DNA from: Ignavibacteriota bacterium
GTDB lineage: Bacteria > Bacteroidota > Ignavibacteria > Ignavibacteriales > Melioribacteraceae
DNA: 33,023 nt
Direction: 5' to 3'
Assembly (NCBI GenBank): GCA_013112585.1
Contig: JABFGH010000016.1
Span: forward strand, 69,330 to 102,352
Below the pieces are notes generated by a model, which searched no databases, was not told the DNA's origin, and worked only from the letters and a program-made list of their open reading frames with translations. This document shows, in pieces, positions 1-7,219 of the stretch (position 1 is its first letter; every line of letters starts with the position of its first letter). Position numbers and translations under genes: made by a program.

Positions 1-693
1 TCGGAAGCCGGAAACCTGAAAGACGGCGAACCTTACAGCATTGATAATGAAGACGGCAATCATGAATATCTATCAACAAAAGGAAGGTTTGTCTGGGAGA
101 AAAATGTTAAGCCCGATTATGTATGGTTCAACGGTAAAGCCGATCATTATGTTCTCGGCGATTCTATAAAATCAATACCCGTTGAAATGAATACCCTTTA
201 CGGTTCTCATGATGATCCCGATTCGAAAATTGTTCCGGTAAAAATACATGTCGGCGATCAAATTTATGATAAGAAAAACAACATACTTATCCAGCCGAAG
301 TTATTTGCCGAGGAAGCCGGCGACAGCGCATACTGGAAAGATTTTGATTGGGGATTAGCTGCAGAAGCCGGAATGGAAAGAGTAGGACTGCCTTACAGCG
401 GCGAGTATGGCTTTGTTAAAACAAAAATGTATTGGCCCGTTAACCACATGGTTGCCACTAAAGAAAATTCCGTTCAATGTGCCGAGTGCCATACGCAAAG
501 CGAAGATGGAAGACTTGCATCGCTCGAAGGTTTCTATCTGCCCGGCAGAGATCACAGCAGCGTGCTTGATTTTATCGGCAGGCTTGATGTTCTGCTCGCT
601 CTACTAGGCGTGTTTATTCATGGTTCAATTAGAGTCTTTTTAGTTTTACGTAAAAGAAAATATTCCGTTCAAACAATAAATGAAAAAGTTTAA
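1..693 (+). CDS. Octaheme tetrathionate-reductase-family cytochrome c, C-terminal part (5' truncated by window edge)
   Basis: The frame is open from base 1, so the N-terminal part and most heme sites lie outside the window; about 230 residues are visible. They contain one c-type heme site, CAECH, after a stretch with MYWPVNHMV, and an upstream segment with FVWEKNVKPDYVWFNG. These fit the C-terminal region of the octaheme tetrathionate reductase (OTR) family, periplasmic multiheme enzymes that can reduce tetrathionate, nitrite or hydroxylamine in vitro. A hydrophobic segment (DVLLALLGVFIHGSIRVFLV) followed by Arg/Lys suggests a C-terminal membrane anchor. The next gene starts 3 bases after the stop and encodes a membrane cytochrome b, a plausible electron partner. 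The physiological substrate cannot be decided here. An ATG at 187 is internal and is not the start. Confidence 0.8.
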   Translation, partial: SEAGNLKDGEPYSIDNEDGNHEYLSTKGRFVWEKNVKPDYVWFNGKADHYVLGDSIKSIPVEMNTLYGSHDDPDSKIVPVKIHVGDQIYDKKNNILIQPKLFAEEAGDSAYWKDFDWGLAAEAGMERVGLPYSGEYGFVKTKMYWPVNHMVATKENSVQCAECHTQSEDGRLASLEGFYLPGRDHSSVLDFIGRLDVLLALLGVFIHGSIRVFLVLRKRKYSVQTINEKV

Positions 694-1853: not shown

Positions 1854-3044
1854 ATGGGACCATTAGTACCTGAAGTTATAAGCAATGAATTTAACCTTAT
1901 GATCGCTTTCATAATCGGAATTGGATTCGGTTACGTTTTAGAGCAGGGCGGATTTTCATCTACAAGAAAATTAGCCGGGCTGTTTTACGGTTATGACTTT
2001 ACCGTACTTAGAGTATTTTTTACCGCAGGCGTAACTGCTATGGTTGGTGTGCTTCTGCTTAGTCATTTTAATTTACTTAACATAGAATTGATTTATGTTA
2101 ATCCAACGTTTTTATGGTCGGCATTAATTGGCGGCGGAATAATGGGTGCGGGATTTATTATAGGCGGCTTCTGTCCTGGAACCAGTGTTTGCGCAGCGGC
2201 TGCAGGCAGACTTGATGCAATGTTTTTTCTCGGCGGATCCTTTTTAGGAATTTTTGCTTTTACAGAATTGTACCCATACTTAAAAGATATTTACTTCGCC
2301 GAAAGCTGGGGCGCTGTTAAAATAAATGTATTCCTTGGATTGTCCAAAGAAGTGTTTGCCGTAATTTTAACTCTTGTTGCAATTGGTGCGTTTGTTGGTG
2401 TTAGATTTATTGAGGACCGAGTAAACGGAAAAGAAACAAAGTTTGATTCGGAAAAATTCAAATCACGTTTTGCAATGGCAGCCGTACCGGTTATTGTAAT
2501 TTTATTTACATCAATTGCACCAAGCGCTGATGAAATTATTGGAAATCAAGTAAACGCTAAACTCTCGAACAATAATTATAATTACAACAAAATTACTGTC
2601 GATAATTTAATTTCGGAACTGCTGAATAAAAATAATCAATACAACCTAATTGACTTACGAAGCAAAGAGGAATACAAAAAATCACATATTCCGCTGGCAA
2701 TTAATATTCCGTTCGATCAAATAAAAAATTACGAGTGGGAAAATTATTTTACACAAAAATTTAAAACAAATATTTTTTATTCAGATAACGTTGAAGAAGC
2801 AAAAAGGGCTTACTTGTTTGCTGAATATCTCGGCGATGCAAAAAGGGCTCTGCTAACGGAACCGATATCAACTTATTTTGCTGAGGTTAATCCGCAAAAA
2901 AGCAATGCCGCATTGAATAATGACGCAGTCATTAATTGGCGGGTTGAGTCTCATCAAGAGTTAATTGAAAAAGAGAAATTCCTTAGTAAGTTTTCGGCAC
3001 CTGTTAAAAAGAAAGTTTTAAAAATAAAAGGCGGGTGTAGTTAA
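1854..3044 (+). CDS. YeeE/YedE transporter fused to a Cys-less rhodanese-like domain with C-terminal GGCS
   Basis: 396 aa. Residues 1-225 hold about six membrane segments and the YeeE/YedE signature FCPGTSVCAAAAGRLD (Cys107, Cys113). Residues about 247-345 resemble a rhodanese domain, with LIDLRSKEEYKKSHIPLA at 264-281, but the catalytic Cys position in FYSDN (308-312) is Ser310. Positive charges lie in the loops after TM1 and TM5, which predicts an N-out topology and a periplasmic C-terminal domain. The last residues are KIKGGCS; Cys395 is the only cysteine outside the membrane part. GGC near a C-terminus recalls the GGCGG sulfur-binding arm of SoxY. A role as a periplasmic sulfur acceptor feeding the transporter is inference. 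It is the last gene of the operon. Confidence 0.85.
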   Translation: MGPLVPEVISNEFNLMIAFIIGIGFGYVLEQGGFSSTRKLAGLFYGYDFTVLRVFFTAGVTAMVGVLLLSHFNLLNIELIYVNPTFLWSALIGGGIMGAGFIIGGFCPGTSVCAAAAGRLDAMFFLGGSFLGIFAFTELYPYLKDIYFAESWGAVKINVFLGLSKEVFAVILTLVAIGAFVGVRFIEDRVNGKETKFDSEKFKSRFAMAAVPVIVILFTSIAPSADEIIGNQVNAKLSNNNYNYNKITVDNLISELLNKNNQYNLIDLRSKEEYKKSHIPLAINIPFDQIKNYEWENYFTQKFKTNIFYSDNVEEAKRAYLFAEYLGDAKRALLTEPISTYFAEVNPQKSNAALNNDAVINWRVESHQELIEKEKFLSKFSAPVKKKVLKIKGGCS

Positions 3045-3080: not shown

Positions 3081-3515
3081 TTAAAATGAAGTAATTTTAA
3101 TTTCATTGTTAATATTCAAACGTTTAAAATCTTTAGCATTCAACGTTACAATCTCTTTTGCTTTAGCTTTTCTTGCACACTCATATATCAAAGCGTCATA
3201 AACAATTCCACCCTTCAAATTTAAATTAGAAACCTTATCGATTAGTCTGAAATACTCATTTCCGTTTATTGAATGTACACTAGCAATTTTTTTAATATTT
3301 GCATCAACTAATTTTCGTGCAGTCGAAGGTGAAATTTTGGGCTTAAATGGGGCTGCGGTTAAAACACTGTAAACTTCTAAAAGTGAATGAGAGGATATAA
3401 CAAGTTTAAATTTTTTCGTTTTGGCTTTTAACAACCACTCTATCGCCATCTCGTGTTTGGGGTGTGCTTCAATAATGGCTGCAATTATTACTGAGCCATC
3501 AAACAATACTCTCAA
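3081..3515 (-). CDS. PIN-domain ribonuclease toxin (VapC-like)
   Basis: 144 aa, a normal length for VapC. The PIN fold's acidic metal-binding residues are in the expected places: Asp6 (LFDGS), Glu47 (SLLEVYS), Asp107 (VYDALI) and Asp129 (NAKDF). VapC toxins are Mg/Mn-dependent endoribonucleases that usually cut tRNA or rRNA and are neutralised by the partner antitoxin. The ATG overlaps the end of the upstream antitoxin gene by 4 bases (ATGA type), so the two are translationally coupled. It faces the sulfur operon tail to tail with only 36 bases between. The target RNA cannot be told from sequence. Confidence 0.9.
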   Translation of the reverse strand: MRVLFDGSVIIAAIIEAHPKHEMAIEWLLKAKTKKFKLVISSHSLLEVYSVLTAAPFKPKISPSTARKLVDANIKKIASVHSINGNEYFRLIDKVSNLNLKGGIVYDALIYECARKAKAKEIVTLNAKDFKRLNINNEIKITSF

Positions 3516-3778
3516 AGTTCATTCTCTCGATTAAGCAAACTTTTTGCTCGCCGCAATCTATCCGCCTGAAGTTCTGTTTCTAAATTGCCCTGTAGTTTGC
3601 CTGTAAATATCAATAAACCATTTTTGTTTATAATTGGGTCTTCATCTTCAATTGCTTCAATAATAATGCGCTTGCCATCTTTAACTATATTGATTGAAGT
3701 ATCAGGTTTGATTCCCAAATGATCACGTAGTTTTTTAGGAATTAATACTCTTCCGAATTTGTCTAACGTTGCAAGCAT
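3512..3778 (-). CDS. AbrB/MazE-type antitoxin (VapB-like)
   Basis: 88 aa. The N-terminal half (MLATLDKFGRVLIPKKLRDH, then LGIKPDTSINI) is a SpoVT/AbrB swapped-hairpin DNA-binding domain. The C-terminal half is charged (LQADRLRRAKSLLNRENEL), as expected for the toxin-binding tail of an antitoxin. It lies directly upstream of the PIN toxin gene and overlaps it by 4 bases, the standard antitoxin-first order. Such antitoxins repress their own operon; a paired direct repeat sits just upstream of the ATG and is a candidate operator. Confidence 0.88.
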   Translation of the reverse strand: MLATLDKFGRVLIPKKLRDHLGIKPDTSINIVKDGKRIIIEAIEDEDPIINKNGLLIFTGKLQGNLETELQADRLRRAKSLLNRENEL

Positions 3779-3917: not shown

Positions 3918-4334
3918 TTAATACGACTTAACTTCCATACCCCAAGTTACCCCACAATACGGACAAGTATCTCCTGCCTTTGATGAATTTGGGACACCAT
4001 TGCTGCAAGAGCCGCATGATTTTTGTACAAGATTATTTGCTTCAGGTGAGTATGTAAACTTTTCCCCTTTGTGATTAATTATATCCTCAGCATTTAAGTA
4101 TCCCTCTTTAACAACTTGATCTAACGATTTTGGCGTTTTGCCTTTTTCTAATTCATAAATCTGCACCGCTGAATTTATCATTCTAAGTTTAACTTTATCC
4201 CCGGCTTCCGCCGCTTCTTTTTGAATACTGCTAATAAGCGAGGGCTTGCTTTTTTCCGTACATGATAAAACAACAAAAGAAATAAAAAGTATGGTTATTA
4301 AACTTTTTAAGAAGTATCCAATTTCTGTTTTCAT
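3918..4334 (-). CDS. Lipoprotein with C-terminal four-cysteine (zinc-ribbon-like) motif
   Basis: 138 aa. The N-terminus has a hydrophobic segment ending in VVLSC, a lipobox with Cys25 as the lipidated residue. The middle (RMINSAVQIYELEKGKTPKS, then LDQVVKEGYL) resembles the globular part of type II secretion/pseudopilin GspG-like proteins. The end carries CGSC (107-110) and CPYC (124-127), a spacing that could form a zinc ribbon or disulfides. A four-Cys zinc-type motif on an envelope-anchored protein is uncommon. The gene is downstream of the subtilisin gene on the same strand but separated from it by a palindrome. No specific function is recognised. Confidence 0.7.
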   Translation of the reverse strand: MKTEIGYFLKSLITILFISFVVLSCTEKSKPSLISSIQKEAAEAGDKVKLRMINSAVQIYELEKGKTPKSLDQVVKEGYLNAEDIINHKGEKFTYSPEANNLVQKSCGSCSNGVPNSSKAGDTCPYCGVTWGMEVKSY

Positions 4335-4357
4335 GTGTTAACCTAAATTATCTGATA

Positions 4358-4385
4358 GTAGAGACGTTCGGCAGAACGTCTCTAC
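4358..4385. repeat. Palindromic REP-like element (12-bp perfect arms)
   Basis: GTAGAGACGTTC at 4358-4369 is the exact reverse complement of 4374-4385, with a 4-base loop (GGCA). It sits 8 bases downstream of the subtilisin stop codon. Similar GTAGAGACGTT palindromes are dispersed intergenic repeats in several bacteria. There is no flanking T-run, so it is not a classical intrinsic terminator, though it may stabilise the 3' end of the mRNA. Confidence 0.75.
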
Positions 4386-4393
4386 GCTGGAGA

Positions 4394-7219
4394 TTATTTC
4401 AAAAGCATCATCTTGCGGGTTTGTGAATAACTGCCTGCTTCAATTTTATAAAAATACATTCCGCTGCTTAGTCCGGCGCCATTAAAATTATAATCATAAG
4501 TGCCTGGCTGCATCTCTGTGTCAATTAATTCGGCGACTTCTCTTCCAAGCAAATCATATATCTTTAAGCTAACCAATCCGCTTTCGGGAATTGAAAAATT
4601 TATTTTCGTTGATGGGTTAAACGGGTTTGGATAATTCTGAGCCAGGTTAAATTCAATCGGCAAAGTTGTTTCGCTTTCCACATCTGTAAGTGTATTGTAC
4701 TTTGCACGACCTGCTTGTATAGCTGTTCTTAAATCTTCTAAATTATTTCCGGCAGCTATAGCAAACGCGGCAACGGCACTGCCTCCGGCATCAATATCTA
4801 AGGGTGCCGCAGATACAACATAAGAAATATCCCCGGCAGGCAAACTTGTATTCTGTATTCCGCTGGAAAGAGCTGTCCACTTTTCAGCATCGGAAAAATT
4901 ATCATAAATATTTATTCCGCCTGAAGATCCGTCATTTCTTATTCCTCTAAAGCCGCCGCCTGATGAAGATAGAACTGCCGCCCCAACATAGGTGTCTGGG
5001 TTTCCGCCTTGATGATATGCATAACCGAATTCATCTGAGACATCATAGCCGACAAGATCATTATCCCCAGTGCTTTCTAAAAGGTCCCAATCAAAAAATA
5101 ACCCTGCTCTTACGCCATTAATTGCCGATGTTGTTTTGTTTGTTAATTTGTATTTAAGAATAATATAGTTTTCATCTGCGGTTGCGGCATAGGAATAAGA
5201 AATTAATTCGGTTTCTATTCCAAGCTTTCCGCCGCCCGCGCCGTCATCATTAAATATTGTCAACCCCTGCTGATCGGCAACATCGCCGGGAACACTAATT
5301 ACAAGAGGCTGAACGGTTGAAAAATCTGTGCTTTGCGTACTTGAAATTCTTGCTGCATCCATCACACTTGCAGGTGAAGTTCCATACAAAAACGCTCCTT
5401 CAAACATTAAATTTGGACCATCAATAAACTTAAATCCTTCTCCTCTTGTGTTTGATGAGTAATCATCAAAACCCAAAGCCCCTTTGCTTGTAAGAGTAAG
5501 TGTAATATTATTACCCGATTGCGTGCTGTATGTTGGGTTTGCTCTAATCGAAATCCATTGAAAATCTTCATAAGCGCCATCGGTATAGTTTATTTTAAAA
5601 TTTATATCCGTGTTAAACGGTACAGAAGGAGAAAGTGTAAAAGAAAATTTATTTGAACTGTTATTAAACTCTTCAAGCATAGCAACGGCACCAGCCGAAA
5701 AGGATGAATTGTTAATTGTCACATTTCCATTTGTTGTTTCTATTGAGATTGTTAATCCTGAAGTTGCATTTAGGTAATTAACAAAATCCATTTCGATAGA
5801 AACATTTTCTCCCGGTTCAAAAATTCCGTCACCATCTCCTTCATCAATAAAAATATGATTGACCATACGGACAGATTTTGAATTTGCGTTTGATAAGGCT
5901 TTGAAAGCATTTATTCTTCCGCTGCCCAGCAGCCCGCTAAAACCGGAGTTTTGAGCATCAATATTATCGGCATTAACTCTTATTTGTTCTGCAACTTGAA
6001 GCGGTGTGTATGATGGAAACTGACTAAAAACCAGCCCGGCTAAACCCGCTGCCAACGGTGATGCCATTGATGTTCCCGACAGTGTAGCATAAGTATCATT
6101 CTGCCACGTGTTATAAATTGAAGAACCCGGAGCTAAAACATCAAGGAACATTCCATAATTTGAAAATGATGATCGAGTATCGGAAGAGGTTGTTGAGCCT
6201 ACTGAAAGCACACCCGGATAGGCAGCTGGATAAATAACTGTTGAAATACCGTTATTACCCGCAGCACCAACAACCAATGTACCTTGTGATATTGCATAAT
6301 CAATTGCAGCTTTTGCGGCAATGGAATAATTGAACCCGCCCCAACTGCAATTTATAACATGCGCTCCGTTATCAGCGGCATAAACTATTCCTTCATAACC
6401 ATAAGCAATTAAAGCCTGCCCGAAATCATTTCTTATATTATCCTGCGATGTCTTAACAGGCATTATCGTACAGTTGAAACCGATTGAAGAAACCCCAACA
6501 CCATTATCAGTTACCGCACTTGATATTCCGGCAACATGGGTTCCATGATCAGGTCTATCTTCTTTCGGATCGTTGTCCGGGGTTCCGGTTAATCCGCCAA
6601 AATCCCATCCGTTAATATCATCAATGTATCCGTTGCCGTCACTGTCGATTCCATTAACGGGGTCATCATTTACCCAAATGTTCGCTGCTAAATCAGGGTG
6701 GTCCCAGTCAACGCCGGTGTCATCAATTGCAATAATAATTGAGGAATCGCCTTTGTTAATATCCCAAGCGGCTTCCGACTGAATTTTAGAAATGGCATAC
6801 TGCGAAGCATGGTTGGGATCGTTTGGAGTATAAGCAAGCTGATATAAATAATGGGGTTCAGCCCATTCAACTAAATCACTTTTAGAAAGCTTGGCTGAAA
6901 TTAATTCCGGATCGATTGATGCGCTGATAAACATTGTAACAATTTTGTTAAGCTCCGCCGCTTCTTTGTTTTCAGCCTTCTTGATTTTATATTTTTGCTC
7001 AACCCTTGTAACACCAAATTTTTCTACTATACTTTTAACGCTTTCCGTTAATTCCACTTTGCCTTCAAGGGAAATAAACCCTGTTTGTTTAAGTTTTACA
7101 ACCACTCTATCTGCAAAATAATAAGTGTCATCTTTTTTAATTACGTTACTTTGCGCAATTAAACTAATGCTTAAAATTGTTAAGAGTAAAAAGGTTAATA
7201 CTGTTTTTGTTAATTTCAT
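4394..7219 (-). CDS. Secreted subtilisin-like S8 serine protease with type IX secretion sorting domain
   Basis: 941 aa. A signal peptide occupies about residues 1-22 (LLLTILSISLIAQS), followed by a prodomain-like region to about 130. The S8 catalytic triad is intact: Asp167 (IDDTG), His225 (PDHGTHVAG) and Ser384 (SGTSMASP), with oxyanion Asn322 in AAGNNG. A long beta-rich region (about 450-840) follows without clear family assignment. The last 80 residues are a type IX (Por) sorting domain with NYPNPFNPSTKI and a terminal KMMLLK. The enzyme should be exported by Sec, moved across the outer membrane by the type IX system, and act on extracellular proteins or peptides. A GAGGA ribosome-binding site precedes the ATG. 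The gene is apparently monocistronic. Confidence 0.93.
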   Translation of the reverse strand: MKLTKTVLTFLLLTILSISLIAQSNVIKKDDTYYFADRVVVKLKQTGFISLEGKVELTESVKSIVEKFGVTRVEQKYKIKKAENKEAAELNKIVTMFISASIDPELISAKLSKSDLVEWAEPHYLYQLAYTPNDPNHASQYAISKIQSEAAWDINKGDSSIIIAIDDTGVDWDHPDLAANIWVNDDPVNGIDSDGNGYIDDINGWDFGGLTGTPDNDPKEDRPDHGTHVAGISSAVTDNGVGVSSIGFNCTIMPVKTSQDNIRNDFGQALIAYGYEGIVYAADNGAHVINCSWGGFNYSIAAKAAIDYAISQGTLVVGAAGNNGISTVIYPAAYPGVLSVGSTTSSDTRSSFSNYGMFLDVLAPGSSIYNTWQNDTYATLSGTSMASPLAAGLAGLVFSQFPSYTPLQVAEQIRVNADNIDAQNSGFSGLLGSGRINAFKALSNANSKSVRMVNHIFIDEGDGDGIFEPGENVSIEMDFVNYLNATSGLTISIETTNGNVTINNSSFSAGAVAMLEEFNNSSNKFSFTLSPSVPFNTDINFKINYTDGAYEDFQWISIRANPTYSTQSGNNITLTLTSKGALGFDDYSSNTRGEGFKFIDGPNLMFEGAFLYGTSPASVMDAARISSTQSTDFSTVQPLVISVPGDVADQQGLTIFNDDGAGGGKLGIETELISYSYAATADENYIILKYKLTNKTTSAINGVRAGLFFDWDLLESTGDNDLVGYDVSDEFGYAYHQGGNPDTYVGAAVLSSSGGGFRGIRNDGSSGGINIYDNFSDAEKWTALSSGIQNTSLPAGDISYVVSAAPLDIDAGGSAVAAFAIAAGNNLEDLRTAIQAGRAKYNTLTDVESETTLPIEFNLAQNYPNPFNPSTKINFSIPESGLVSLKIYDLLGREVAELIDTEMQPGTYDYNFNGAGLSSGMYFYKIEAGSYSQTRKMMLLK

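Follow-up and report, generated by a model that had tools for sequence, protein, structure and literature searches.

What is a rhodanese domain for when it lacks its catalytic cysteine, and why would the same protein carry a cysteine at its very end? The question is raised by a gene near the start of the window, by which is meant the whole stretch of 33,023 nucleotides that was analysed. The product of this gene joins half a YeeE transporter to a rhodanese domain and ends in KIKGGCS. The answer that we find probable is that the protein is a membrane-anchored periplasmic sulfur carrier, which works by means of a swinging arm. It would serve one of two reductases, either OTR, an octaheme cytochrome c of the tetrathionate reductase family, or Psr, and would be analogous to SoxY without being homologous to it. 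Anchored proteins with such a body and tail occur in many anaerobic bacteria.

The gene is an open reading frame of 396 codons for amino acids, at 1854-3044 on the + strand (Table 1). Pfam finds Sulf_transp at residues 32-215 and Rhodanese at 255-327, each above its cut-off. For the latter (PF00581) the score is 39.6 bits with a cut-off of 22.2, so that the rhodanese fold can be assigned. An AF2 model of the protein has a mean pLDDT of 79.6, with a confident rhodanese domain, a long helix at 357-380 and a disordered end, where pLDDT drops below 50 at residues 392-396. The rhodanese domain superimposes on 3O3W with Z 13.9 and an rmsd of 1.9 over 102 residues. What sets it apart from an active rhodanese is the catalytic loop, where Ser310 (codon TCA) stands in place of the Cys. 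The first-pass annotation had reported this replacement, the sequence of the end, and Cys395 as the sole Cys outside the membrane part. All three hold: the translation of the reading frame gives that end, and the only other cysteines are Cys107 and Cys113, both in the membrane part.

Table 1 Features of the operon at the start of the window. Positions are those of the window.
Feature	Position	Strand	Details
Octaheme c-type cytochrome (OTR), 3' part	1..693	+	Whole gene L002:6431-8023, 530 aa
Cytochrome b561-type membrane subunit, 213 aa	697..1338	+	PF01292 E 3.6e-26
YeeE half A, GTG start, 176 aa	1322..1852	+	PF04143 profile positions 176-308, E 5.7e-21
Cys134 of YeeE half A, counterpart of StYeeE C293	1721..1723	+	Cys in 97/97; 6LEO alignment
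YeeE half B, Cys-less rhodanese domain and GGC-tailed arm, 396 aa	1854..3044	+	
Ser35, at the place of StYeeE C22 (cytoplasmic-side Cys)	1956..1958	+	Ser in 90/92
Cys107, counterpart of StYeeE C91	2172..2174	+	Cys in 92/92
Sixth membrane helix, residues 199-221	2448..2516	+	Helix in model; hydrophobic in 92/92
Rhodanese-fold domain, residues 240-345	2571..2888	+	AF2 pLDDT 86-97 per ten-residue block
Ser310, at the catalytic loop Cys position of active rhodaneses	2781..2783	+	Codon TCA; Cys in 1/92 homologues
Flexible Lys-rich tail, residues 381-396, end GGCS	2994..3041	+	pLDDT block means 60, 43
GGC codons	3030..3038	+	Cys395 = codon TGT, 3036-3038

Is the tail a trait of the family, or of this one protein? 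In the class, 131 of 294 genomes have a match at E <=1e-10, some of them only over the YeeE part, and 33 related loci were taken from named genomes. The fetched loci yield 92 distinct full-length fused proteins. This number leaves out fused reading frames under 330 aa, those incomplete at the 3' end, and duplicates, meaning proteins with identical last 380 residues. With one exception, all 92 end in GGC plus at most one residue: 78 in GGC, 6 in GGCS, 4 in GGCG, 2 in GGCA and 1 in GGCT. In the exception, L146, an N-gap precedes the end, which is therefore unreadable. The loop position holds Ala in 49 proteins, Gly in 29, Ser in 10, Asp in 3 and Cys in a single one (L016). It had been proposed to score the terminal GGC against the loop Cys over the fused homologues, and the comparison comes out at 91 against 1 of the 92; none of the readable ends lacks the C-terminal Cys. 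In alignment A1, which has 81 rows, G393, G394 and C395 are among the 27 invariant columns.

A GGC end could also arise by chance, and this was rejected. Among other stop-to-stop reading frames of at least 150 aa at the loci gathered by then, 6 of 998 end in GGC(x). All six match rhodanese profiles and adjoin the fused gene. With these neighbours set aside, the count is 0 of 992. The terminal GGC is a genuine feature of the whole family.

The gene is the last of a four-gene operon, in which OTR, cytochrome b561 and the two half-YeeE genes abut on the + strand. The window begins inside this operon, which was read with the DNA upstream of the window. The OTR gene (G000:C16:68568-69866) scores 577.9 bits on TIGR04315, where the cut-off is 375, and matches 1SP3 at E 4.8e-126. 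Its sequence has eight CXXCH, as counted by eye, and hence eight haem motifs. OTR and cytochrome b lie upstream on the same strand in 89 of the 92 fused loci; in the remaining three (L014, L033, L064) the sequence stops short of these genes, at an edge of the contig or of the fetched stretch. The association is not mutual. YeeE and rhodanese are absent at 11 of 14 OTR loci, which were hand-picked from 34 matches, most of them for having no full-length match, and one of the 11 (L102) is cut 0.8 kb behind OTR. This means that the carrier is not required by OTR everywhere, and rules out that OTR always needs it.

Some further observations concern these surroundings. At L243 (G118:C17:113500-122500), positions 4071-5810 (-) hold a single reading frame in which an N-terminal portion of OTR runs into YeeE half B with its GGC rhodanese. 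This is either an in-frame deletion or a misassembly. In the window, the operon is immediately followed by two convergent genes, for a PIN-domain protein (3081-3515, -) and a MazE/AbrB-like antitoxin (3512-3778, -), which are likely a type II toxin-antitoxin pair. At 3918-4334 (-) lies the gene of a 138-aa putative lipoprotein with a C-terminal CGSC...CPYC pattern that resembles a zinc ribbon; a Pfam search with this protein gave no match at E 1e-4.

In several lineages, the rhodanese is an anchored protein of its own, encoded behind the YeeE pair. The genes upstream of this split form are those of a molybdopterin oxidoreductase, a 4Fe-4S subunit and NrfD, which is the Psr/Phs type. For example, in the phylum of L031 there is a match in 34 of 149 genomes at E <=1e-20. 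The 20 loci fetched from it comprise 18 with Psr subunits, one that is cut and one of the OTR form, and all 21 matched rhodaneses end in GGC(x). In the order of L035, matches at E <=1e-30 occur in 79 of 198 genomes. From these, 40 loci were picked by hand, with tandem-match genomes taken first: 38 have Psr subunits, one is of the OTR type (L229) and one has neither (L235). The same module of YeeE pair and GGC rhodanese stands behind either of two unrelated reductases.

At L235 (G777:C7:25500-38500), positions 3927-5330, the GGC rhodanese is intact and YeeE consists of two overlapping reading frames in different frames. No psr genes adjoin the rhodanese, and there is no NrfD in the genome. The locus is apparently a decayed one; that it keeps its GGC rhodanese with no Psr subunit beside it does count against a tie between carrier and reductase. 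Elsewhere the two reductases come together: L220, L222, L224 and L227 have an OTR gene near a Psr-type carrier cluster, and at three of these loci cytochrome b can be seen as well. At L227 an additional long GGC rhodanese adjoins OTR.

The separate proteins also bear on the loss of the loop Cys. The first-pass annotation suggested that the fusion may have swapped the loop Cys for the tail thiol, and this did not survive. At all 66 loci counted, the separate rhodanese that lies closest to the YeeE pair ends in the GGC tail, and at none of them does it have the loop Cys. Because these nearest unfused relatives also lack the loop Cys, the fusion is rejected as the cause of its loss. The 66 are the two fetched sets plus earlier split loci; for four that have a fused copy as well (L029, L033, L034, L229), the count took the nearest separate one. 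Further separate copies with a single domain have the tail in 27 of 30 cases and the loop Cys in 7 of 30. Among long copies, those above 300 aa, which have two domains wherever this was scanned, 19 of 24 bear the tail and 18 of 24 the loop-Cys motif. All these counts leave out reading frames that are incomplete at the 3' end, as well as short ones truncated at the 5' end. Most of the secondary and long copies that bear the loop Cys carry the tail too. Since the tail is common to most copies while others keep the loop Cys, it is the loss of the latter that marks the copy tied to the YeeE pair.

The tail is not universal among the additional copies, being absent in 3 of the 30 secondary separate and 5 of the 24 long ones. 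Two secondary rhodaneses, L218 4026-4655 (-) and L220 8522-9244, have tails reading ...CPDLN, next to neighbours in EVEGGCG or EVGGGCG. Nine atypical loci, hand-picked from a longer list of matches, widen the pattern: five divergent ones of the Psr type end in EGC or DGC, two of the OTR type in GGLCS, and two in GGC. The Cys is always the last or second last residue, and the GG is not absolute.

Where one locus encodes several of these proteins, their tails resemble each other. This was scored on 32 loci with at least two GGC rhodaneses (78 proteins), over the six residues before GGC and the one after. Left out were proteins that do not end in GGC(x), the loci L226 and L209, which nearly duplicate L223 and L210 respectively, and the L034 fusion, which was under the annotation threshold. 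Tail identity is 4.76 of 7 within a locus (62 pairs) versus 1.99 between loci (2941 pairs), and 0 of 5000 label permutations come up to the within-locus figure. The residue after the Cys, with 'none' counted as a state, agrees in 61 of 62 pairs within loci versus 1447 of 2941 between them. Even against the most similar other locus, where the mean score is 2.76, tails agree better within their own locus in 27 of 32 cases. The match is not found everywhere: in L033, L034 and L229 the tails agree little beyond GGC, and in a smaller test the L034 fusion agreed with the tails of its two neighbours at only 3 of 10 positions, GGC included.

The bodies behave in reverse. They score 31 bits across classes within a locus (49 pairs) versus 97 bits within a class between loci (1059 pairs), where the classes come from a simple loop-motif search and a few proteins may be misplaced. 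Recent gene conversion of the tails is disfavoured by their codons. Where two tails share a residue, GGC included, the codon is also shared in 233 of 428 cases (54%), versus 46% predicted from codon usage in the bodies. The match is thus kept mainly at the protein level, and the difference leaves room for a small contribution from conversion. Like tails are as expected if all arms must fit one partner. The matched tails show a shared constraint, and not which partner imposes it.

On which side of the membrane does the tail work? It had been placed in the periplasm from the start, and by prediction it stays there. Over the 92 proteins, the predicted cytoplasmic loops (about 10, 7 and 17 residues) have a mean K+R of 1.97, 1.03 and 4.35; for the opposite-side segments before helix 6 (about 9, 15 and 19 residues) the means are 0, 0.04 and 1.17. 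The mean net charge of the flanks of helix 6 in these homologues is +3.3 before and -0.3 after, with a mean K+R of 3.4 in the segment that follows. This helix would bring the rhodanese domain to the periplasmic side. The membrane half, modelled alone with a mean pLDDT of 70.9, superimposes on StYeeE 6LEP with Z 7.4 and an rmsd of 4.0 over 159 residues, a Z that is not decisive alone for a helical protein. Foldseek with this half alone gave no useful match, and phmmer with it found no YeeE structure. Among the separate relatives, an N-terminal hydrophobic stretch is present in 96 of 96 single-domain proteins (lipobox-like in 8) and in 18 of 18 long relatives tested (lipobox-like in 12). Taken together, the loop charges, the 6LEP match and the N-termini of the separate relatives predict that tail and rhodanese domain are periplasmic.

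The YeeE halves are permuted: the upstream gene matches the C-terminal half of Sulf_transp and the fused gene the N-terminal half. PF04143 is found on both genes, so both halves are present. Half A aligns with 6LEO 237-320 and 8K1R 237-329. In StYeeE, according to the available text of PMC11073785, C293, C91 and C22 form a relay, with the Cys of YeeD as a fourth on the cytoplasmic side. Here the first two have counterparts and the third is a Ser. This Ser35 was placed by eye, LEQGGF-S against LQRGRI-C, in agreement with the 6LEP alignment of 13..183 to 1..181.

This matters for the best of the other explanations, namely that the YeeE pair takes over sulfane sulfur or thiosulfate from the arm and imports it into the cytoplasm, and that the reductase draws on these compounds independently. 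The fusion to a YeeE half in 92 distinct homologues speaks for import, as do the two conserved relay cysteines. In addition, SoxT, a relative of YeeE, has been proposed to receive sulfur begun on SoxYZ (available text of PMC11582611). We nevertheless regard import as unlikely. The cytoplasmic-side relay Cys is the one that is replaced, in nearly all homologues, and there is no room for YeeD/TusA between the abutting operon genes, nor is either named among the scanned neighbours. Ordinary import is therefore not the obvious reading. The constant neighbour, moreover, is a respiratory-type reductase, OTR or PsrABC. From the sequences we infer that a role of the YeeE pair in receiving or anchoring the arm would fit better than delivery of sulfur to an acceptor in the cytoplasm. 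A hand-over of sulfur from the tail to the YeeE channel is possible.

Known systems offer several partial parallels. YeeE/TsuA with YeeD/TsuB (6LEO, 8K1R) has the same half-YeeE fold, the first and second relay cysteines, and a thiol protein attached to the transporter. Here, however, the gene is split and permuted and the third Cys is replaced by Ser. The partner differs as well, being rhodanese-like and predicted to be periplasmic, whereas YeeD is cytoplasmic and TusA-like. Sud of Wolinella (1QXN) shares the rhodanese fold, with a profile E of 0.003. Sud is a periplasmic sulfur donor to Psr, and it works with its loop Cys. The family described here, by contrast, lacks the loop Cys, has its thiol on a tail and is attached to the membrane.

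SoxY bears its intermediates on the Cys of a swinging arm, and the end of the Paracoccus protein, ...VGGCG, can be deduced from a mutagenic primer that encodes VGGEG-stop (both from the available part of PMC5336275). The first-pass annotation had likened the present tail to this arm. As a functional likeness this appears sound: both would place a carrier Cys on an arm in the periplasm, here by prediction, a GGC(x) arm closes 91 of the 92 fused homologues, and four of these tails end in GGCG. It does not extend to the proteins themselves. The SoxY Pfam family has no match on the 396-aa reading frame at E up to 1, the fold here is that of a rhodanese, and the protein is membrane-fused or anchored. 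Its associates are reductases and not oxidative Sox enzymes, and the operon has no room for SoxZ.

The form of the tail also bears on a second alternative, in which the terminal Cys is a redox thiol that carries no sulfur. It would be joined by a disulfide, either to a partner subunit or to its counterpart in a dimer, and so regulate or anchor a complex. The window's protein does have a single Cys outside the membrane, and matched tails within a locus would also fit tail-tail pairing. A flexible GGC or GGCG end is, however, typical of the SoxY arm and not of structural disulfides, and the neighbours are reductases of sulfur-compound families. All in all this is improbable. Least credible is that the GGC end is a signal for sorting, lipidation or covalent attachment: it is short, extremely C-terminal and species-matched among paralogues, but the proteins already bear a membrane helix or a lipobox-like N-terminus, and the hydrophobic stretch that follows GG in GlyGly-CTERM signals is missing.

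Parts of the arrangement have been seen before. A rhodanese and DUF395 pair lies downstream of psrABC in Ca. Thermonerobacter, and similar psrABC genes are named for Melioribacter roseus and Ignavibacterium album; the gene set is that of the Psr form described here (PMC6338057). The available portion of this account does not mention the tail Cys, the missing loop Cys or an OTR form. The Psr operon of Desulfurivibrio dismutans encodes a lipoprotein with three rhodanese domains, and a YeeE gene located with periplasmic sulfurtransferases led to the proposal of import from them via YeeE; in the text available, no terminal Cys tail is mentioned (PMC12142623). From similarly partial texts, a SoxY-S3 gene stands beside otr in lucinid symbionts (PMC11237559), and rhodanese genes lie with SirA/Otr-like cytochromes in Dethiobacter (PMC10376724). 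A candidate for an earlier account of the C-terminal cysteine, PMC9516567, was set aside, as its available text concerns a cysteine desulfurase domain. Within the accessible parts of the open literature, subscription papers being outside this scope, the GGC tail on these rhodaneses was not found described.

How would such a carrier operate? In the reading that we prefer, that of a periplasmic swinging-arm carrier, the loop of the rhodanese domain would no longer catalyse sulfur transfer, and the domain would be a docking body for a flexible tail of some 16 residues. The Cys near the end would carry a sulfur species. Our guess is that this is a persulfide, or a thiosulfonate that derives from thiosulfate, tetrathionate or polysulfide; the direction in which it travels is likewise guessed. 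The arm would then offer this cargo to a quinol-linked periplasmic reductase, which is OTR with cytochrome b here, and PsrABC in other lineages. Where further rhodaneses with the GGC tail retain the loop Cys, they probably load the cargo or pass it on. As for the permuted two-gene YeeE pair, we guess that it holds the carrier at the membrane, and it may also take sulfur from the tail via Cys134 and Cys107.

A wider view can be offered tentatively, and here doubt slightly outweighs confidence. The whole might be the reductive counterpart to Sox, a way of respiring inorganic sulfur compounds with the substrate held on rhodanese-fold carriers that can replace one another. Their arms would share a docking code specific to the species. 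Within an operon the carriers would keep one tail, OTR and Psr would both accept it, and the loop of the main carrier would have been discarded once the thiol had moved to the arm.

To our knowledge, the natural substrate of octaheme OTR enzymes is not settled, and neither is how Psr-type enzymes receive sulfur that is insoluble or reactive. The family would be a case of a rhodanese fold turned from enzyme to carrier, and its YeeE pair one that has a thiol partner in the periplasm, as predicted, and not in the cytoplasm. It is also an unusually clear case of matched C-terminal tails on diverged proteins. One member, L006, is found in the type strain Draconibacterium orientale FH5T, which has a complete genome, so that experiments in a cultured bacterium look possible. 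With a universal carrier thiol encoded alongside both OTR and Psr, one could test directly whether these enzymes act on sulfur that is bound to a protein.
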